NCBI GenBank assembly: GCA_946886405.1
Contig: CAMPIO010000111.1
Location: 1-10,692, forward strand
Direction: 5' to 3'
Source: an uncultured Pseudoxanthomonas sp.
GTDB lineage: Bacteria; Pseudomonadota; Gammaproteobacteria; Xanthomonadales; Xanthomonadaceae
DNA: 10,692 bases
Made by a program: the position numbers and the translations under genes. This document shows, piece after piece, positions 2,450 through 10,467 of this stretch (its first letter is position 1; each line of letters opens with the position of its first letter). The notes under the pieces were generated by a model that worked only from the letters and a program-made list of their open reading frames with translations, searched no databases and was not told where the DNA came from.

Positions 2450-3235
2450 ATGGACCTGCACCCCGACGACCCGGCGTTCGACCCGGAATCCCAGCAGCGC
2501 TACGACCGCAAGCGCCTGCTGCGCGCGCTCAACCTGAGCCTGGCCTTCGTGCTGCTGTTGGCCATGGTGTATTCGGCGCAGAACAGCTTCGACGTGCGCG
2601 CGTTCACCATCGCCCCGCTGTCGGTGGAAGGGCTGCTCGGCGTCCTGACGGCACCGCTGCTGCATGGATCACTGGAGCACATCGCCGCGAACGCGTCGGC
2701 ACTGCTGATCCTTGGCACGCTCGCGGGTGCCGTCTATCCACGCGCCACGCTGTGGGCGATCCCGCTGGTCTGGCTCGGTTCGGGTCTGGGGCCGTGGCTG
2801 CTGGCCGATCCCGGCACGCACACACTCGGCGCCAGCGGCCTGACCCACGGTCTGATGTTCATGGTCTTCATGCTCGGCCTGTTGCGCCGCGACCGCGCCG
2901 CCATCGCGGCGGGCATGATCGCGTTCCTGTTCTACGGCGGCATGGTGTTGACCATCCTGCCGCGCGAAGCCGGCGTGTCGTGGCAGGCGCATATGGGCGG
3001 CGCGGTGGCCGGCCTGATCGCCGCCTTCCTGTTCCGTCGCCTGGACCCCGTACTGCCGCGCAAGAAGTACAGCTGGGAGATCGAGGAAGAGGAAGCGGCT
3101 GCGCGTGGCGACGACGAACTCGAACTGCCTGCACCGCGCGAGGTGCCGCTGCTTTGGGTGCGCCCGGAATCGCCGGAAGAAGCGCAGCGTGGCGTGGTGC
3201 TGCGATTCCCTCCTCGTGAGCCACCGGCATCCTGA
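2450..3235 (+). CDS. Rhomboid-family intramembrane serine protease
   Basis: A 261-residue polytopic inner-membrane protease. The rhomboid signature is complete: HGSLEHIAAN (72-81), giving the HxxxN oxyanion-hole motif with His77 and Asn81; GASG (127-130) with nucleophile Ser129; and AHMGGAVAG (180-188) with general base His181. Six hydrophobic segments span about 28-200, so the Ser-His dyad sits within the membrane as in GlpG. An unusual soluble tail of about 60 residues (200-261) is rich in Glu, Asp and Pro and should face the cytoplasm. No clear Shine-Dalgarno precedes the ATG at 2450, and no other start fits. The gene follows the TerC gene after 88 bp containing a large hairpin, so it may be read through from the Mn-controlled promoter or have its own. 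The substrate is unknown. Confidence 0.92.
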   Translation: MDLHPDDPAFDPESQQRYDRKRLLRALNLSLAFVLLLAMVYSAQNSFDVRAFTIAPLSVEGLLGVLTAPLLHGSLEHIAANASALLILGTLAGAVYPRATLWAIPLVWLGSGLGPWLLADPGTHTLGASGLTHGLMFMVFMLGLLRRDRAAIAAGMIAFLFYGGMVLTILPREAGVSWQAHMGGAVAGLIAAFLFRRLDPVLPRKKYSWEIEEEEAAARGDDELELPAPREVPLLWVRPESPEEAQRGVVLRFPPREPPAS

Positions 3236-3369: not shown

Positions 3370-5658
3370 TCAGAACTTCGCGCTGAACTCCACGCCGACC
3401 GTGCGCGGCTCGTTGATGAAGCCGGTCAGGTTGTTGAAGTCGATACCGCCGACGATGCGGCGCTGGTCGGTGATGTTGCGGCCGAACAGGGCCACTTCGT
3501 AATCACCGTAGCCCCAGCCATAGCCGATGCGCAGGCCGCCTTCCAGCGACGACTTGCCGGTGAACTCGACGGAGTCGTACAGGAAGAAGTTCACTTCGCT
3601 GCGGTAGGCCCAGTCGGTGTAGACATACAGCTCGCTGCCGTCGCCCAGGCCGACGCTGTAACGCGCGGTCAGGTTGTGCACCCACTTCGGGGCCTGCGGC
3701 AGCTGGTTGCCGTCGATCAGCGCCAGGCCTCCGGTGTTGCGCGGGTCGGTGACCGTGCAGGCGGCGCACACCGCAACGGCGAGGTCGTTGTCCTGGATCT
3801 CGGTGTCGTTGTAGCTGCTGCCCAGCGTGAGCAGCAGGTTGTCGAGCACGTAGGCCTGCATGTCCAGTTCGAAGCCCTTGCCCACCGACTTCTCGGCGTT
3901 GAGCAGGATGTTCGCGTTGGCGGCGCCGCCGACCGCGGTCAGCTGCTGGTCCTTGATGCGGTAGTAGAAGACGCCCGCGCTCATGCGTGCGCGCTTGTCC
4001 CAGACGTCGGCTTTCACGCCGGTCTCGATGGAGGTGACGGTTACCGGACCGGCGACGGACTTGCCGTTGAAAGCGCCGGCGGCCTGGATGCTGCTGCCAC
4101 GGAAGCCGGTGGCGGCGCGTGCGTACAGGTTGACGTCGTCGCTGACCGCGTAGGTCGCCGACAGATCCCAGTTGAACTTCTTGTCTTCGGGCGAGGCGGA
4201 CAGATCGCCGTCGGGCTCGAGCGCGGCCAGCTGCGCCAGCGTGCACTTGCCCGCCAGCACGCAGGCGGCGAAACCGGTGTTCCAGTAATCCTCGACGGTC
4301 AACTTCTTCTCGTCGACGGTGTAGCGCAGGCCCGCGCGCAGCTCCAGCTTGTCGGTCGCCTGCCAGGTCGCCGCGCCGAACAACGCCCAGGCGTCGTTGG
4401 TCTGGCGGATGCGCTGGTAGCCGTCCTGCGCACTGTTGTTGAGCGAGTCGTAGCTGAAGCTTTCGACGCGGTAGTCTTCCTTGAAGTAGAACAGACCCGC
4501 CTGCCAATTCCACGGTCCCGCGTACTCGGATTCGATGCGGAACTCCTGCGTCCACTGCGAGTGGTCCGGGATGCCGTCGGCGGTTTCCGACGCGAACGGG
4601 ATCACGCCCGGGCCGGAGTCGGGCAGGAACACCGCGCCGTAGCCGCCATCGATATCGCCACGGTTGATCGTCTCGACGCTCTCGTAGCCGGTGATCGAAT
4701 AGAGCTTGTAGTCGCCGACGTCCCAGTTCAGTCGTGCACTGGCGCCCTGCGATTCCAGCTCGGAGTAGTTCAGGCCGTCCTGCGAAACCTTGTCCTCGTC
4801 GAAGCCGGGGACGAAGTTGTTGGTGCCCGGGTCGATGATGTTCGCGCGGAACAGGCGCGCGGTGCCGTTGAGCTTGCGGGCATGCGCGTTGAGCAGGGCT
4901 TCGAAGCCCTCGCCTTCGTAGAGGAACTGCACGCGGCCGGCGGACTCGTCGTAGCCTTCGAAGCCATCGCTCGGGCCCGGATAGGTGTTTTCCACCCAGT
5001 CGTCGCGGCGCTGGTAGAGCACCGAGGCACGCGCGGACCAGTTCGGACTCAGTGCGCCACCGACGGCGCCTTCGACGTTCCACATGTTGTCGCTGCCGAC
5101 GCCGACTTTGCCGTAACCGCTGGTCTCCTGCGACGGCTTGGCCGACTCGAACTTCACCACGCCGGCGGGCGTGTTGCGGCCGAACAGCGAACCCTGCGGG
5201 CCGCGCAGCACTTCAATCTGCTCCAGGTCGAACAGCGGGAAACCCTTCAGGATCGGGTTTTCCTGCACCACGTCGTCATACACCAGCGAGACCGGCTGCG
5301 AGGTGTTGAGGCGGAAATCGGTGTTGCCGTAGCCGCGGATGTAGAAGCGCGGGAACGCGCGGCCGAACGAGGATTCGATGTTCAGGCTGGGCACGCGCCC
5401 GGACAGGAAGCGGATGTCGGTACCGCCTGACGCGAGCACGCCGAGTTGCTCACCGTTGATCGTGCTGATGGACACCGGCACGTCCTGGATGTTCTCGACC
5501 TTGCGCTGCGCGGTGACCTGCACGGTGTCGAGCGTGGCGGCGTCCTTCTCGGCCGGGGTGGCGGCGTCCTGGGCGAGGGCGGTGCCGAAGGGCAGCAGCG
5601 CGGCGATGGCAAAAGCGAGGCGGTGCGGCCGGACGGCGGCCGGGCGGACTGGAGACAT
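3370..5658 (-). CDS. TonB-dependent outer membrane receptor
   Basis: A 762-residue outer-membrane active transporter powered by TonB-ExbBD. A signal peptide occupies about 1-29, with a cleavage site after ALA. A TonB box-like segment LDTVQVTA follows (43-50). The plug domain covers about 54-170, with the conserved IRGYG and LRGPQGSLFGRNTPAGVV. The rest is a long 22-strand-type barrel rich in alternating aromatic strands, ending in Phe (SAKF) as outer-membrane proteins do. The ATG at 5658 has GGAAAG 7 nt upstream; an upstream in-frame ATG at 5709 would put 17 residues before the signal peptide and is less likely. Putative extracellular loops contain two close Cys pairs (CVLAGKC and CAAC). Substrate is not evident: the motifs resemble the broad Sphingomonas/Xanthomonas group covering sugars, aromatics and siderophores. 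It follows the bufferin operon on the same strand after 127 bp and seems separately controlled. Confidence 0.93.
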   Translation of the reverse strand: MSPVRPAAVRPHRLAFAIAALLPFGTALAQDAATPAEKDAATLDTVQVTAQRKVENIQDVPVSISTINGEQLGVLASGGTDIRFLSGRVPSLNIESSFGRAFPRFYIRGYGNTDFRLNTSQPVSLVYDDVVQENPILKGFPLFDLEQIEVLRGPQGSLFGRNTPAGVVKFESAKPSQETSGYGKVGVGSDNMWNVEGAVGGALSPNWSARASVLYQRRDDWVENTYPGPSDGFEGYDESAGRVQFLYEGEGFEALLNAHARKLNGTARLFRANIIDPGTNNFVPGFDEDKVSQDGLNYSELESQGASARLNWDVGDYKLYSITGYESVETINRGDIDGGYGAVFLPDSGPGVIPFASETADGIPDHSQWTQEFRIESEYAGPWNWQAGLFYFKEDYRVESFSYDSLNNSAQDGYQRIRQTNDAWALFGAATWQATDKLELRAGLRYTVDEKKLTVEDYWNTGFAACVLAGKCTLAQLAALEPDGDLSASPEDKKFNWDLSATYAVSDDVNLYARAATGFRGSSIQAAGAFNGKSVAGPVTVTSIETGVKADVWDKRARMSAGVFYYRIKDQQLTAVGGAANANILLNAEKSVGKGFELDMQAYVLDNLLLTLGSSYNDTEIQDNDLAVAVCAACTVTDPRNTGGLALIDGNQLPQAPKWVHNLTARYSVGLGDGSELYVYTDWAYRSEVNFFLYDSVEFTGKSSLEGGLRIGYGWGYGDYEVALFGRNITDQRRIVGGIDFNNLTGFINEPRTVGVEFSAKF

Positions 5659-5785: not shown

Positions 5786-6274
5786 TCATTCCCCCGTCCG
5801 ACCCGGTGGCCAGGACGCCACCGTGGCGGCGTGCTGCGGCCCACGCCTTGCGATCAGGTGATCCAGGCTGGCGCGACCCGGACCCGCGAACAGCAGCCAC
5901 GTGAACACGGCCACGTAGAGCACCTCGTCCAGTTCGACGAACTCGTCCAGCGTGGAGATGCCCGGCAGCACCACGACGGCCAACGCCACCAGCATGTTGA
6001 AGATCATCGGCAGCATGGTCAGCCGGGTGGCCAGTCCCAGCATGATCAACACGCCGCCGATGAATTCGGTGCCGGCGCAGACCGTTGCACTCAACGCGGG
6101 CCAGGGAATGCCCCACTCGATGAAGCGCTCGGTGAAGAACGCCAGGTTGTTCAATTTGGCCCATCCGGTCTCCAGCCAGAAATAGCCGAATACCAGCCGC
6201 AACAACAGCGGACCGATCCAGTCATGGTCGTGGAGGAAGGCGAGTGCACGGGCGTGCACGGGTCGGGTCTGCAT
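5786..6274 (-). CDS. bufD: DoxX-family membrane protein of the bufferin operon (BufD-like)
   Basis: A 162-residue inner-membrane protein of the DoxX/DoxD family with four predicted membrane segments (about 20-37, 64-81, 86-104 and 116-131). The family hallmark near the first helix is RLVFGYFWLETGWAKL (26-41), and a conserved Glu lies in the second (CAGTEFIGG, 66-74). DoxX proteins are related to a thiosulfate:quinone oxidoreductase subunit and often accompany bufferin genes, where a redox or electron-transfer role in peptide maturation or thiol chemistry has been suggested. It is the last gene of the cluster, 18 bases after bufC, with GGAG 7 nt before the ATG. The C-terminal 30 residues are hydrophilic. 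The function is inferred from family and operon position. Confidence 0.85.
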   Translation of the reverse strand: MQTRPVHARALAFLHDHDWIGPLLLRLVFGYFWLETGWAKLNNLAFFTERFIEWGIPWPALSATVCAGTEFIGGVLIMLGLATRLTMLPMIFNMLVALAVVVLPGISTLDEFVELDEVLYVAVFTWLLFAGPGRASLDHLIARRGPQHAATVASWPPGRTGE

Positions 6275-6292
6275 GGAAGATCTCCAGGAAAG

Positions 6293-7057
6293 TCAGGCAG
6301 GGAAGGACAGGTCGGCCACCAGGCCGTCGGACAACCAGCGCTTCAGCAGGCGCGCGGCGCGCAGTGCAGGCGAACGACCGGGCAGACGCGCGCACCAGTC
6401 GGCGAACGTGTCGCCGCGTTCGATGGCCACCAGTGCCATCGCCTCGTCGCGGGGCAGGCGGCGCCAATGGACATCGAACCCCGCGCGCCAGAGCAGCCAC
6501 GCGGTGGGTGGGTGCGGACGCAAGGGGGGCAGGCGCTCGCCACGCGCATGGGCATCGAGCACGGCAATGGCATTGCTGTGCAGGCGCAGGCGGCGCACGA
6601 CCGGGTGCAGCATCAAGCGAAGGCCGGCCCACGCTTCGGCAGAAAGCGCCGCCATGTCGTCGATGCTGCGCGCTGGCGCATCGGCGGCATCGAACACCTC
6701 GCCCTGCCGCCACTCCAGGCGCGCGAGATCGGCGGAGGTCGCATCGCGCAGGGCCAGCCAGTGCGGGAAACGCTGCCCTAGGTGCCGGACCGACGGATGG
6801 CGCGAAGGATGGGCGGCGAGATAGGCCTCAGCGAGAGTGTCGAAGCGGTCTTCGCCCAGCGAGGCGCGCAAGGCGGGAAAGTCGTGGCCCAGCACCTCCA
6901 CTAGGCGCCAACGGTAGCCTTCCGCATACACGCGCAGGCGTACTGAGGCAGGGGCCGGGGGTGCGTCGGACAGGAGCGGTGCCTCTGCGGGATTCCGGCG
7001 CAGCAGCCAGCTGGCGAGCTGTCGCTGCTGGTCGACGAGGGCCGTCGTGTGGTTCAT
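6293..7057 (-). CDS. bufC: BufC/HvfC-like DUF2063 protein, bufferin maturation partner
   Basis: A 254-residue soluble protein. The N-terminal DUF2063 domain (about 8-100) shows the family features QQRQLASWLL, RLRVYAEGYRWRLVEVL and DFPALRASLGEDRF. A more variable C-terminal domain (about 105-254) ends in a helical segment containing Trp and Leu. DUF2063 proteins are obligate partners of DUF692 enzymes in bufferin and methanobactin-like systems (MbnC is a distant functional analogue) and probably present the precursor to the enzyme. Start choice is firm: the ATG at 7057 has AGGAG 8 nt upstream and overlaps the bufB stop as ATGA, implying translational coupling. A longer upstream frame would simply lie inside bufB. 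Confidence 0.9.
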   Translation of the reverse strand: MNHTTALVDQQRQLASWLLRRNPAEAPLLSDAPPAPASVRLRVYAEGYRWRLVEVLGHDFPALRASLGEDRFDTLAEAYLAAHPSRHPSVRHLGQRFPHWLALRDATSADLARLEWRQGEVFDAADAPARSIDDMAALSAEAWAGLRLMLHPVVRRLRLHSNAIAVLDAHARGERLPPLRPHPPTAWLLWRAGFDVHWRRLPRDEAMALVAIERGDTFADWCARLPGRSPALRAARLLKRWLSDGLVADLSFPA

Positions 7058-7899
7058 GCCGCACGCTCCTGCACGGATGCACCGGCAGCGACGGCACGCG
7101 CGACATCCAGTTCGGTCAGAAGGTCTGCCAGCGGCGGGATGTGGTCGTCGCGTTCGATCATGGCCGGAACATGCCCGAACCGGCGCACCGCCTCCGCATA
7201 CAGCGACCACACGCCGTCAGGCACCGGGGCATCGTGCGTGTCGATCAGCAGGCCGCTGCCCCGCGCATCCTCGCTGTGTCCGGCCAGGTGGATCTGGCGG
7301 ATCGCGTCAGGCGGCAAACGATCGAGGAATGCGACCGCATCGAACCCGTGGTTGTGCGCGTTGACGAAGACATTGTTCACGTCCAGCAACAGCCCGCACC
7401 CGCTTTCGGCCACGATGGCGGACAGGAATTGCGCTTCGTCCAGCGTGTCGTCGGCGAAGCGCAGGTAGCTGGAGACGTTCTCGAGCGCCAGCGGCATGCC
7501 GAGCGCGTCCTGCACCTGGCGCACGCGCGCGGCGACATGCCGCACGGTGTCGTCGTTCTGCGGCAGGGGCAGCAGGTCGTGGAACTGCACGCCGGCATGG
7601 CGCGTCCAGCACAGGTGGTCCGACACGATCCGTGGCCGCACGCGCCGGGCCAGGCGGCCCAGCGCGCGCAGGTAGTCGCGGTCCAGCGGATCGCTTCCGC
7701 CGATGTCGAGCGACACGCCATGCATCACCACGGGCCATCGTTCGGCCATCCGGTCGAGCATCCACAGCGGCCGGCCGCCGTCGACCAGATAGTTCTCGCT
7801 GAGGATTTCCAGCCAGTCCACGCGCGCGCTGCCCGCGAGCAGCGCGTCGTAGTGCTGCGGGCGAAGGCCCAGGCCGAAACCATGCAGGGGCGTCGTCAT
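7054..7899 (-). CDS. bufB: BufB/HvfB-like DUF692 multinuclear iron enzyme, bufferin maturase
   Basis: A 281-residue TIM-barrel protein of the DUF692 (MbnB-like) family. These non-haem multi-iron oxygenases modify cysteines of small precursor peptides, to oxazolone/thioamide in methanobactin and to thiooxazole in bufferins. Family motifs run in order: LGLRPQHYD (10-18), SENYLVDGG (34-42), MHGVSLDIGG (59-68, His60), SDHLCW (93-98), LENVSSY (139-145, Glu140), LDVNNVFVNAHNHG (172-185, Asp173), HLAGH (204-208), IDTHD (219-223) and MIERDDHIP (247-255, Glu249). The His, Asp and Glu in these motifs are the expected iron ligands, so the enzyme looks intact. The start at 7899 is where family similarity begins; a 90-residue upstream extension in frame is Arg/Pro-rich, overlaps bufA and is not real. 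It lies 25 bases after bufA and overlaps bufC by 4 bases. Confidence 0.94.
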   Translation of the reverse strand: MTTPLHGFGLGLRPQHYDALLAGSARVDWLEILSENYLVDGGRPLWMLDRMAERWPVVMHGVSLDIGGSDPLDRDYLRALGRLARRVRPRIVSDHLCWTRHAGVQFHDLLPLPQNDDTVRHVAARVRQVQDALGMPLALENVSSYLRFADDTLDEAQFLSAIVAESGCGLLLDVNNVFVNAHNHGFDAVAFLDRLPPDAIRQIHLAGHSEDARGSGLLIDTHDAPVPDGVWSLYAEAVRRFGHVPAMIERDDHIPPLADLLTELDVARAVAAGASVQERAA

Positions 7900-7924
7900 G
7901 GCGTGTCGTCGCTCCGGCCTGGCG

Positions 7925-8227
7925 TCAGGTGTTGGCTTTCTTCGCGTCGGTCGCCTTCTTCTGCGGCTTGGGCGCTTCGAACTTGCCGCCGGCGGTCTTG
8001 CAGGTTTCGGCGGTGGATGCGGTGAAGCCGTGGCCCTTGCACGCGTTCTGGCCCTTGCAGGCGTTGGACGCGCTCTTGCACGCGCCTTGTCCCTTGCAGG
8101 CATTGGCGCCGACGCAGTGGCCGACCTTGGCCGAGCCGGATTCGGCCGCATGAGCCATCGGTGCACCGAGGAAGAGAGCGGCGGCGGCGACCGCGACGGA
8201 CAGGCCGGAAAGCTTGGTGGTGTTCAT
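7925..8227 (-). CDS. bufA: Bufferin-type Cys-rich metallophore precursor (BufA, probably BufA2-like)
   Basis: A 100-residue secreted small protein. A signal peptide covers about 1-27 (hydrophobic VAVAAAALFLGAP, AHA cleavage site), leaving a mature peptide of about 73 residues. The mature core has six Cys (38, 44, 50, 57, 63, 76), mostly spaced six apart in a repeated N-A-C-K-G-Q pattern (ANACKG, GACK, NACKGQNACKG). A Lys/Ala-rich tail follows (82-100). This arrangement, directly before DUF692, DUF2063 and DoxX genes, marks it as the modified substrate of the operon. The peptide should bind metal (copper in characterised bufferins) in the periplasm. The Cys-repeat type differs from the DUF2282 (BufA1) pattern and resembles BufA2. 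GAGG lies 7 nt before the ATG at 8227. The subfamily name is from memory; the precursor role is strongly supported by context. Confidence 0.9.
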   Translation of the reverse strand: MNTTKLSGLSVAVAAAALFLGAPMAHAAESGSAKVGHCVGANACKGQGACKSASNACKGQNACKGHGFTASTAETCKTAGGKFEAPKPQKKATDAKKANT

Positions 8228-8437
8228 GGGAGAGCCTCGTTGGAGTTGGGGAAGGCGTCGTCGGCAGCGCGCTGCAGGACGCCATGCCATTCCACCGCCA
8301 TGCGCCGGCGGCCACCATTCCCGAGCGTTCCCGCGATATGCCCCATCGTCCGGCTCCCGGCCTTGGCGGACGCGCGCGCATGAACGGGCGGACGCAGGGT
8401 CATGGTCGGTACCTGCCCCGTGGCCTACGATGGCGAC
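8228..8437. promoter_or_regulatory. Divergent control region between the bufferin operon and the AraC-type gene
   Basis: This 210-bp gap must hold the promoters of both divergent transcripts. On the plus side, TACGAT (8426-8431) lies 7 bases before the A of the AraC-type start codon. With no Shine-Dalgarno present, that spacing would fit a leaderless message, but the -35 is poor. On the bufA side no convincing sigma70 or ECF promoter could be fixed. A GGAATGG motif occurs twice on the minus strand. Nothing else was recognised. Confidence 0.4.
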
Positions 8438-9358
8438 ATGGATCCCTCGCCCCTCCGTGCGCTCGACCTGGCCGACGACGACGATCGCGACGCCGTCCTG
8501 GAGACCGTGCTGGGCGCCTATCGCATGCGCGTGGAGATCACGGCGGACGTGCGCTACTGCGGCACCTGGTACGACAGCGAGCCGGCGACGCACCACGGCC
8601 AGTTCCATCTGCTGACGCAGGGCCAATGCTGGATCAGTGGTGAAGCACTCGAGGCTCCCGTGCTGCTCGCGCAAGGCGACCTGATCGTCTTTCCCGCCGG
8701 CGTGCGCCACGTGCTGTCGTCGTCACCCGACCCGCACCTGCCCCATGCGCCTGATGCCGGCGACACCAGCATGCTGTGCGGCGAGCTGGAGTTCATCACC
8801 GGCTCGCACAATCCGATCTTCGCCGCGCTGCCGCGCTGGTTCGTGATACGCGGGCAGGACAGCAGCGCCGGCTTCCGGCAACTGGCGCAGATGCTGGCGG
8901 ACACCAGCCGGGAACGCCGCTGGGGTCGCCAGCTGGTGCAGAACAAGCTGGCCGATTCGTTGTTCACCATGGCCGTGTGCGAGTACGTGCGCCAGGCCGA
9001 GCAGCCGCGTGGCCTGCTCGCGGCGCTGACCGACGCACGCCTGTCGCGTGCGCTGTCGGCCATCCATGCGCGGCCCGGTGAAGACTGGACCATCCAGCTG
9101 ATGGCGCAGGAGGCGGGCATGTCGCGCACCGCATTCGCCGAACTGTTCACCGCGACGGTCGGGACCCCTCCCATCCAGTACCTGGCGCAGTGGCGGGCGA
9201 CCGAGGCGCGCCGGCTGCTGAAGAATCGGCGCTTCTCCGTCGCCGCGATTGCCGAGATGCTGGGTTACAGCAGCGAGGCGGCGTTCCGCCGCTTCTTCAA
9301 GCGCGTCGAAGGCGTGGGGCCGGGCAACGCGCGGCGTCGTCCCGGCGGATCCTCCTGA
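8438..9358 (+). CDS. AraC-family transcriptional regulator with N-terminal Cupin_6 domain
   Basis: A 306-residue DNA-binding regulator. The N-terminal Cupin_6/AraC-binding domain spans about 5-190, with family features CGTWYDSEPATHHGQFHLLTQ (41-61), LLAQGDLIVFPAGVRHVLS (76-94) and CGELEF (114-119). The C-terminal AraC domain (about 200-300) carries two helix-turn-helices: one around 217-237 (IQLMAQEAGMSRTAF) and one around 266-286 (FSVAAIAEMLGYSSEAAFRRFF). The closing family motif is slightly altered (GVGPGNARR rather than SPxxYRR). The start at 8438 begins family similarity; an in-frame ATG at 8402 is an alternative. It is transcribed divergently from bufABCD, the usual layout for a local regulator, but control of that operon is only an inference. 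The effector is unknown; His52, His53, His91 and several Cys in the sensor domain are noteworthy given the metal context. Confidence 0.92.
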   Translation: MDPSPLRALDLADDDDRDAVLETVLGAYRMRVEITADVRYCGTWYDSEPATHHGQFHLLTQGQCWISGEALEAPVLLAQGDLIVFPAGVRHVLSSSPDPHLPHAPDAGDTSMLCGELEFITGSHNPIFAALPRWFVIRGQDSSAGFRQLAQMLADTSRERRWGRQLVQNKLADSLFTMAVCEYVRQAEQPRGLLAALTDARLSRALSAIHARPGEDWTIQLMAQEAGMSRTAFAELFTATVGTPPIQYLAQWRATEARRLLKNRRFSVAAIAEMLGYSSEAAFRRFFKRVEGVGPGNARRRPGGSS

Positions 9359-9432: not shown

Positions 9433-10467
9433 ATGCGCCCTGTCGCCCGTCTGTTTCCCGCTCTCGTGCTTGCCCCGCTGTTCCTGGTCGCCTGCGGCGG
9501 CGACAACGTCCGACCCGCACCGCCCGCCGCCGTGGTAAAGCCGGCGCCGGCGATGCCCAAGCCGAAGGTCGGTATCGCGCTCGGCGGCGGCGCGGCGAAG
9601 GGTTTCGCGCACATCGGCGTCATCAAGATGCTGGAAGCCAACGGCATCGAGCCGCAGATCGTGTCCGGCACCAGCGCCGGCAGCGTGGTCGGTGCGCTGT
9701 ATGCCAGCGGCATGGATCCCTTCCAGATGCAGAAGCAGGCCTTCGCGCTGGACGAAGCGAAGATCCGCGACGTGCGCCTGTTCTCCGGCGGGCTGGTGCA
9801 GGGCCAGAAGCTGCAGGACTACGTCAACGACCTGGTCGGCAAGCGCACGATCCAGCAATTGAAGAAGCCCTTCGCCGCCGTTTCCACGCAACTGGAGAAC
9901 GGCGAACGCACGGTATTCGTGCGTGGCAACACCGGTCAGGCGGTGCGCGCGTCAAGCAGCATCCCGGGCGTGTTCGAGCCGGTGGTGATCGGCAAGGCCA
10001 GCTACGTGGATGGCGGCGTGGTCAGCCCGGTGCCGGTGGACGCAGCGCGCCAGCTGGGCGCGGATTTCGTCATCGCCGTGGACATCTCCACCAAGGCGCC
10101 CGGCACCAAGCCCGGCAGCATGCTGGGCATCGTCAACCAGTCCATCGGCATCATGGGCCAGCGCCTGGGCGAACAGGAACTGGCGCGTGCCGACATCGTC
10201 ATCCGGCCGAAGGTCAACGACATCGGCCCGGCCGACTTCGAGCAGAAGAACAATGCCATCCTCGAAGGCGAACGCGCCGCGCTGGCGGCGATGCCGCAGA
10301 TCAAGGCCAAGCTCGCCGAACTGCAGCGCACCCGCACGGCCGCGCACGCGGCGAAACATGCGCCGCCGAAGCCGGACCCGCGTTGCCTGGAAGAACCGTC
10401 GCGACTGGGGCGCCTGTTCGGCCGCGACGTGAAGTGCGATGCCGCCGGGCAACCGGTGAAGCCGTAG
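9433..10467 (+). CDS. Patatin-like phospholipase, predicted lipoprotein
   Basis: A 344-residue serine acyl hydrolase of the RssA/patatin group. A lipoprotein signal peptide ends in lipobox LVAC with Cys21 as the lipidation site. A Pro/Ala/Lys-rich linker follows (24-45). The patatin domain spans about 46-255: oxyanion loop GGGAAKG (51-57), nucleophile elbow GTSAG (79-83, Ser81), substrate-pocket segment SSSIPGVFEP (174-183) and catalytic Asp in DGG (193-195). The Ser-Asp dyad is intact. Helical, Lys/Arg- and Pro-rich sequence occupies 290-344. It probably hydrolyses phospholipid or other acyl esters at an envelope membrane surface, facing the periplasm. The ATG at 9433 is chosen because it starts the signal peptide. 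TATCCT (9399-9404) is a possible -10. The TAG stop lies within the GTAG head of the following REP element, and the last 50 coding bases recur exactly at the window end. Confidence 0.92.
   Translation: MRPVARLFPALVLAPLFLVACGGDNVRPAPPAAVVKPAPAMPKPKVGIALGGGAAKGFAHIGVIKMLEANGIEPQIVSGTSAGSVVGALYASGMDPFQMQKQAFALDEAKIRDVRLFSGGLVQGQKLQDYVNDLVGKRTIQQLKKPFAAVSTQLENGERTVFVRGNTGQAVRASSSIPGVFEPVVIGKASYVDGGVVSPVPVDAARQLGADFVIAVDISTKAPGTKPGSMLGIVNQSIGIMGQRLGEQELARADIVIRPKVNDIGPADFEQKNNAILEGERAALAAMPQIKAKLAELQRTRTAAHAAKHAPPKPDPRCLEEPSRLGRLFGRDVKCDAAGQPVKP

Follow-up and report, generated by a model that had tools for sequence, protein, structure and literature searches.

The 10,692-nucleotide stretch of DNA analysed here (the window, hereafter), from an uncultured Pseudoxanthomonas sp. 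(contig CAMPIO010000111.1), carries the bufferin operon bufABC-doxX and, divergent from it, a gene for an AraC-type protein that we name 'bufR'. Our analyses make it likely that this locus is a Buf2-type bufferin operon under the control of a dedicated, local AraC-type activator. We propose such an activator, BufR, because the regulator belongs to a buf-linked clade, because a DNA element upstream of bufA tracks the regulator, and because of the geometry of a -10 box relative to that element. The gene identities, the linkage, the DNA element and the -10 geometry were all computed directly. Taken alone, the operon merely extends a family that is already common; the linked regulator, the repeat and the two-way promoter are the new, less expected and directly testable part.

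A bufferin operon linked to an AraC-type regulator

The operon lies on the minus strand and consists of four intact open reading frames in the order bufA-bufB-bufC-doxX. The first gene, bufA (bufA2; 7925..8227), encodes a bufferin precursor of 100 amino acids, bufB (7054..7899) an MNIO enzyme (MbnB_TglH_ChrH) of 281 amino acids, bufC (6293..7057) a partner protein of the DUF2063 plus RRE type (PME type 1) of 254 amino acids, and doxX (5786..6274) a DoxX-type inner-membrane protein of 162 amino acids. The intergenic gaps are 25, -4 and 18 bases; order and gaps had been given in an initial annotation of this DNA and were confirmed. That annotation placed a complete operon at 5786-8227, which holds for the four genes, but the span leaves out the divergent AraC gene and the promoter elements, which in our view are part of the locus as well. 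Its description of good Shine-Dalgarno sites fits bufA, preceded by GAGG, as well as bufC and doxX, each with a GGAG at good spacing, but not bufB, whose ribosome-binding site is weak, the sole GGAG being about 12 nucleotides upstream. Among the 80 best BufB loci in genome_contigs, the sample used for all counts of BufB loci, tblastn detected a BufC homologue in 79, BufA in 73 and DoxX in 28. The recurrence of BufC and BufA at BufB loci, together with the 3955 BufA homologues found at E <= 1e-3, indicates that the bufABC-doxX grouping is not due to chance.

The regulator gene occupies 8438..9358 on the plus strand. Its product has an N-terminal Cupin_6 sensor domain (Pfam, 116 bits) and a C-terminal double helix-turn-helix (HTH_18, 72 bits), and the structures closest to its fold are those of AraC-family proteins, at TM-scores that are low over the whole length. 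We placed the start at the ATG at 8438, rather than at 8402, because genome G001 has an in-frame TAG just before the corresponding ATG. A search of 250 genomes of the order at E <= 1e-40 returned 27 places in 24 genomes (AraC matches below 60 bits were dropped when flanks were read). The 15 closest relatives, with 45-92% identity, lie in 15 genomes, and 14 of them adjoin a BufA2/BufB/BufC operon. The fifteenth, in G490, has no buf gene within 12 kb, and its genome gave no BufA2 match at E <= 1e-10. No buf gene was found beside the other 12 places (<=41% identity) in the flank read, which was at most 1.5 kb per side and in several cases ended with the contig.

The same linkage is seen in the regulator tree (48 rows, two pairs of them identical, with L001 left out), in which a clade with a support of 100/99 comprises 36 rows, 33 of them buf-linked. 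Three rows of the clade lack the linkage: the orphan of G490 and the paralogues L136 and L137, both on long branches. The last two are fast-evolving second AraC copies in Dyella-type genomes (G601 and G583), in whose flanks, as far as read, no buf gene was seen. An AraC match at L022 (29%) was not counted as linked, since it falls outside the clade.

Furthermore, the linkage is maintained over three gene orders: in Pseudoxanthomonas-type loci araC is divergent from bufABC-doxX, in Dyella-type loci doxX is divergent from bufABC-araC, and in a Panacagrimonas metagenome-assembled genome (MAG; locus L038) araC lies past a divergent doxX. It also spans Lysobacteraceae, Rhodanobacteraceae and a Nevskiaceae MAG. 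That the linkage persists despite these rearrangements argues for function. An AraC regulator is present at 19 of the 80 BufB loci, and DoxX accompanies all 19 of these, as against 9 of the 61 others.

A tandem half-site element that follows the regulator

Upstream of bufA, on the minus strand, lie two direct 15-nucleotide half-sites spaced 21 bp apart: a distal one at 8337..8351 (GGACGATGGGGCATA) and a proximal one at 8316..8330 (GAACGCTCGGGAATG). The same arrangement was found in all 27 linked loci first scanned, with the half-site consensus GGACG-N2-CGGG-C/G-A-C/T-A. The element begins 118-188 bases before the bufA ATG assigned by script, a range in which the distances for L004 and L052 are too long, an internal ATG having been taken as the start. 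The self-match of the half-sites at a shift of 21 averages 10.0 of 15 places, and at the other shifts from 8 to 35 it is at most 6.0. All 27 upstream regions differ from one another, and a 38-base site is identical between the window and L002.

A matrix trained on the Dyella-type loci finds the same place in 7/7 Pseudoxanthomonas-type loci and in L038, in each case with a score exceeding all 100 shuffles, and the reverse matrix, trained on the Pseudoxanthomonas-type loci, finds it in 20/20 loci. Leave-one-out scores of the linked loci range from 8.4 to 57. By comparison, 102 of 105 bufA upstream regions without a linked AraC score below zero; these controls come from 108 such loci with a bufA match, three of which were dropped for having less than 150 bases of upstream sequence, and they include second bufA genes from genomes in which another copy is linked. 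The linked rows number 34 in total, of which 27 had bufA upstream DNA at discovery and the other seven were scanned at the end. Two of the seven copy L009 and L049 and were not counted. The remaining five held-out loci all carry the element, with scores of 49.2, 28.7, 24.3, 48.0 and 44.9 against a top score of 8.3 in 100 shuffles.

In six genomes searched for the tandem pattern with at most 3 mismatches, it occurs once each in G001, G419, G544 and G613, always upstream of bufA, and is absent from G396 and G425, whose sites diverge more; the reversed pattern has zero occurrences in the same search. G001, the nearest of the genomes used, has a second MNIO gene (G001:C1:1260292-1261074) without the element at this threshold, and therefore the switch looks specific to the bufA operon, on these pattern matches, with weaker sites elsewhere possible. 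No DUF2282 (Buf1) precursor was found in G001 for this second MNIO gene.

In one genome a similar repeat, doxX and an AraC relative occur together. The 71% AraC gene of the L035 genome lies close to doxX, which is directly preceded by an element-like repeat, and 13 kb of sequence showed no buf gene. L184 (G617; element at about 6275) has an AraC relative (73%), an rpoZ-like gene recognised by eye and the repeat just upstream of doxX, and bufABC was not found within 13 kb. To judge from this arrangement, the regulator may control doxX alone at L184.

Geometry of the predicted two-way promoter

Comparison of the loci revealed a conserved -10 box. In the window, the predicted -10 box of bufA is TGGAAT (8289..8294, minus strand), 21 nucleotides past the proximal half-site. 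The hexamer at this offset ends in A, A and T in 25, 25 and 24 of the 27 loci, respectively, and matches TATAAT at four or more of six positions in 22/27, a level that no other offset between 8 and 35 reaches in more than one of the 27 loci. Four of the five held-out loci have such a hexamer at offset 21 (GATGAT, CAGAAT, GAGAAT and CACAAT). If the spacer has its common length of 17 bases, the -35 region of bufA would touch the proximal half-site. At class II AraC-activated promoters the -35 region touches a half-site, and at araBAD the I1-I2 half-sites of AraC are direct, 21 bp apart, with the proximal one abutting the -35 region. The spacing and the -35 contact at bufA thus resemble those of I1-I2, but the half-site sequence is unlike, and the sensor domain is Cupin_6, which is not known to bind a sugar here.

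Inverted half-sites directed toward the divergent gene were detected in 23 of the 27 loci, with 0.03-0.22 expected per shuffle. In the window they lie on the plus strand at 8368..8382 (GGACGCGCGCGCATG) and 8390..8404 (GGACGCAGGGTCATG), 22 bp apart, and are followed at 21 nucleotides by the predicted -10 box of araC, TACGAT (8426..8431), which ends 6 nucleotides before the ATG at 8438. Across 22 of the 23 loci (L036, which has the inner site only, was left out), the divergent -10-like hexamer lies at offset 21 in 11 and at offset 22 in four. The araC start codon is located 6 or 7 bases past the -10-like box in the window and in six Pseudoxanthomonas-type relatives, with a pattern that allowed 5 to 8; it is GTG in L004 and L005 and ATG in the rest of these seven. 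This short distance predicts a leaderless transcript, and the araC mRNA is thus probably leaderless, judging from the position of the box.

Identity of the operon

The precursor BufA scores 86.4 bits on the NCBIfam model NF050166 (Cu_RiPP_BufA2; cut-off 60). A Pfam match to DUF7640 was disregarded, since its 21 bits are under the cut-off of 28. The initial annotation had described a secreted six-Cys precursor: the six cysteines are there, at positions 38, 44, 50, 57, 63 and 76, and the secretion part relies on a Sec signal peptide predicted by eye (residues 1-27; 8147..8227, minus strand), with cleavage between APMAHA and AESG. Six cysteines are present in 74 of 120 BufA homologues among the matches listed (3955 in total), and in that set the gaps between them are 6, 6, 7, 6 and 13 in all 74. 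Among the same 74, Lys follows Cys2, Cys3, Cys4 and Cys5 in 74, 67, 68 and 72, respectively, and Cys6 in 29; it follows Cys1 in at most one, as the five commonest residues there, none of them Lys, make up 73. In Buf1, modification affects the central cysteines, and the two outer ones are joined by a disulphide (PMC12452194). By analogy with Buf1, we predict that the modified residues are Cys44, Cys50, Cys57 and Cys63, each followed by Lys, which would place the modified core at 8039..8098 on the minus strand.

The BufB protein matches Pfam PF05114 with 358 bits, NCBIfam NF050167 (MNIO_BufB) with 367.7 bits, above the cut-off of 310, and the structure 3bww of the PDB at E 4.6e-55. It falls under the threshold of the methanobactin MbnB equivalog (70 bits; cut-off 325). 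Its nearest relative in genome_contigs is that of a Pseudoxanthomonas MAG, locus L002, at 91%. In an alignment of 81 rows, namely the window plus 80 BufB rows that are best tblastn segments, H60, D94, H95, E140, D173, N175, H204, H208, D220, H222, E249 and D251 are invariant (81/81), in line with the intact multi-iron-type enzyme that had been annotated. These 12 residues are candidate metal ligands. Asp252, directly after the catalytic Asp251, is found in 80/81 rows. An Asp in this place is a mark of Cys-Lys MNIOs (PMC12668002).

BufC matches Pfam PF09836 (DUF2063) with 81 bits and lies under the NCBIfam HvfC threshold, with 39.9 bits against a cut-off of 142. Its sequence alone gave no match in the PDB, but a profile of 49 rows finds the NGO1945 structure 3dee at E 5.6e-5. 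The top three Foldseek matches of its AlphaFold model (predicted local distance difference test, pLDDT, 93.9) are 8hci_A (TglI of TglHI), 3dee and 8hi7_A. As modelled, therefore, the fold matches the MNIO partner protein type, like TglI and NGO1945. DoxX matches Pfam PF07681 with 58 bits and fails the HvfX model NF050144 (69.8 bits; cut-off 80), and for this reason we name the gene only as doxX.

The initial annotation had expected DUF692, DUF2063, DoxX and a bufferin precursor, and its reading of a bufferin-type architecture gains support from the BufA2 and MNIO_BufB equivalog cut-offs being passed and from the match to the published Buf2 core. Its remark that the genes carry DUF names is outdated, as the Pfam name MbnB_TglH_ChrH and the NCBIfam names BufA2 and BufB exist. 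Buf2 clusters contain genes for a precursor, an MNIO, a DUF2063 protein and DoxX, with six conserved cysteines in 90% of cases (PMC12452194). Because the core described there is the same, the operon adds, on its sequence, a further member to the Buf2 bufferins already published, and an ordinary one for the family, whose BufA2 cut-off is passed in 67 of 369 genomes of the same class. By analogy with its relatives, the operon product is very likely a chemically modified, copper-holding peptide.

Sensor cysteines and the comparison with RclR

The regulator residues C53, C76, C126 and C193 are kept in 32, 32, 33 and 32 of 33 usable linked rows, respectively, a count that excludes L001, whose row is nearly empty because an upstream in-frame stop shortened the extracted frame. 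In 14 unlinked relatives, C53, C76 and C126 are kept in 12, 10 and 12, and C193 in three. The best NCBIfam model for the regulator is RclR, at 109 bits, far under the cut-off of 400. Like RclR of E. coli, the protein belongs to the AraC family and has cysteines in its sensor domain, C126 being aligned with RclR Cys89. Unlike it, it would target a metallophore operon, and the two proteins are identical at 73 of 278 aligned places (about 26%), with RclR Cys21 three columns away from C53. With a score below the cut-off, and with Cys89 aligned and Cys21 not, the regulator falls outside RclR as defined. RclR senses hypochlorous acid via a Cys21-Cys89 disulphide (PMC7464077), and RclA, encoded in the RclR regulon, is a copper(II) reductase (PMC7527725). 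Copper and oxidant are therefore both candidate inducers of the bufferin locus.

Proposed mechanism and alternative explanations

In the mechanism that we propose, the RRE-like domain of BufC would hand the BufA precursor to the iron enzyme BufB in the cytoplasm, and BufB would convert the cysteines of the four central Cys-Lys pairs to 5-thiooxazoles, with a change of about -4 Da each. Cys1 and Cys6 would escape modification and, once the peptide has been exported by Sec, probably pair in a disulphide. The mature peptide would bind surplus copper in the periplasm, and DoxX would support it at the inner membrane. Modification and copper binding are carried over from relatives, and the export of BufA is likewise inferred. 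The AraC/Cupin_6 protein would bind the 21-bp tandem direct repeat, with the proximal half-site abutting the -35 region of bufA, as well as the inverted half-sites facing its own gene, and would turn on both bufABC-doxX and its own gene, through a probably leaderless mRNA, from a single two-way promoter. Its binding to the element, activation over repression and the inducing signal are what we infer here. More speculatively, and with less confidence than we place in a dedicated activator as such, the Cys-rich AraC/Cupin_6 clade could be a single-target sensor of bufferin demand, reading copper or oxidised thiols via its conserved cysteines and driving one symmetric two-way promoter with its own leaderless transcript, so that the levels of precursor, modifying enzymes, DoxX and sensor would increase in step. 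On this reading, and as far as the literature searched shows, no dedicated transcription factor would have been described for the Buf2 family before. The single-target part of this idea relies on the 3-mismatch pattern in six genomes.

Several observations weigh against a dedicated activator. No AraC regulator is found near 61 of the 80 BufB loci, nor near the operon in 20 of the 34 BufA2-bearing genomes of the order, and the loci are related, a kinship that the Fisher test ignores. A plain sigma-70 consensus scan of the locus found no promoter. Inverted half-sites are missing in 4 of the 27 loci, and the divergent -10 geometry holds in just 15 of 22, with offset 53 also reached in four. The regular expression and the geometry were picked after the first 27 sequences had been viewed, and the shuffles preserve base composition only. 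The reverse matrix puts L038 below its shuffle maximum and L018 and L162 barely above theirs. Among the held-out loci, the half-sites of L189 and L190 agree at just 7 of 15 places, and the hexamer of L189 is one base off offset 21. Finally, three controls score above zero: L030 (18.4), L006 (8.5) and L035 (4.5). The genomes of L006 and L035 have an AraC protein elsewhere (48% and 71%, respectively), and that of L030 has weak matches only.

These controls bear on the possibility that the regulator is a chance neighbour and that a different factor recognises the repeat: element-like sites precede bufA at L006 and L030, two loci that gave no AraC match. We nevertheless regard this as very improbable, since the linkage is kept over three gene orders and the families named above, and the element follows the regulator, held-out loci included. 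It is also improbable, although to a lesser degree, that the AraC protein represses the two-way promoter instead of activating it. The direction of control is not readable from sequence, and AraC-family proteins do both. However, a sigma-70-type site that includes a -35 was not found by the scan, and the proximal half-site does not cover the -10 box but precedes it by an almost constant spacing, which resembles class II activation.

A different view of the signal, which we judge unlikely but take more seriously, is that the locus answers oxidant stress first, of the reactive-chlorine or thiol kind, and copper second. The regulator would then be a thiol sensor similar to RclR, and protection against oxidants would come from DoxX and from the thiols of the thiooxazoles. 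RclR being the top model, the nearly complete conservation of the four cysteines in linked rows, the alignment of C126 with Cys89, a disulphide-forming cysteine of RclR (PMC7464077), and the presence of DoxX at every AraC-linked BufB locus would all fit this view. On the other hand, the RclR score is far under its cut-off, the identity is low, Cys21 is displaced from C53, C53, C76 and C126 are common in unlinked relatives too, and published bufferins have been linked to copper. Least credible to us is a copper-scavenging (chalkophore) system in which the adjacent TonB-dependent receptor (5658-3370) imports the loaded peptide. The receptor gene does lie 127 bases downstream of doxX on the same strand, and one is also downstream of doxX in L002 and G001. 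However, a receptor match occurs at just 3 of the 80 BufB loci, is placed differently in L003 and L046, and is about 1.3 kb from doxX in G001, and published bufferins work in copper excess (PMC12452194). We therefore rejected the receptor as a part of the system.

Relation to described systems

The operon shares with Buf2 (Buf_6/12Cys, BufA2; PMC12452194) the six-Cys precursor, here with a predicted signal peptide, BufB, the DUF2063-RRE protein BufC and DoxX, and differs from it by the linked AraC/Cupin_6 regulator and the repeat-bearing two-way promoter. The same paper names sigma factors for Buf1 and none, in the part available, for Buf2, and reports the modifications of Buf2 as not identified. 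With the Cys-Lys group of captophorins, the locus has in common NACKG-type motifs and an MNIO whose catalytic Asp is followed by another Asp; the examples solved by nuclear magnetic resonance in PMC12668002, in contrast, are Lys-Cys (EGKCG) peptides. That paper lists NACKG among the common precursor motifs and states that 'transcriptional regulators' often co-occur with MNIO clusters (its Table S1). AraC has 0 mentions in the available main texts of PMC12452194, PMC12668002 and PMC12538549, and in the literature matches, as far as available, that pair AraC with DUF692 and copper, AraC appears only in a reference or as a plant name. No description of the regulator or the element was found in the literature searched, which lies mostly outside subscription papers. 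If true, the single-target sensor idea could tie reactive-chlorine-type sensing to thiooxazole metallophores. Since base-level coordinates are given here for the candidate regulator, its half-sites, both predicted -10 boxes and the probable start codon, the inducing signal is testable by reporter.

Neighbouring genes

The gene for the TonB-dependent receptor (3370-5658, minus strand) is probably a local neighbour. Among the 80 BufB loci it is in the same place in L002 only, and G001 has a similar arrangement at the distance given above. Further genes matched by Pfam, all on the plus strand, encode a TerC-family membrane protein (1450-2361), a rhomboid-domain protein (2450-3235) and a patatin-like phospholipase (9436-10467), and all three have matches close to the operon in L002 and in G001. 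A partial open frame at 3-1235 on the minus strand runs past the end of the window; its product presumably resembles an rRNA methyltransferase of the RlmI kind, and an overlapping plus-strand open reading frame of 832 amino acids is probably spurious.

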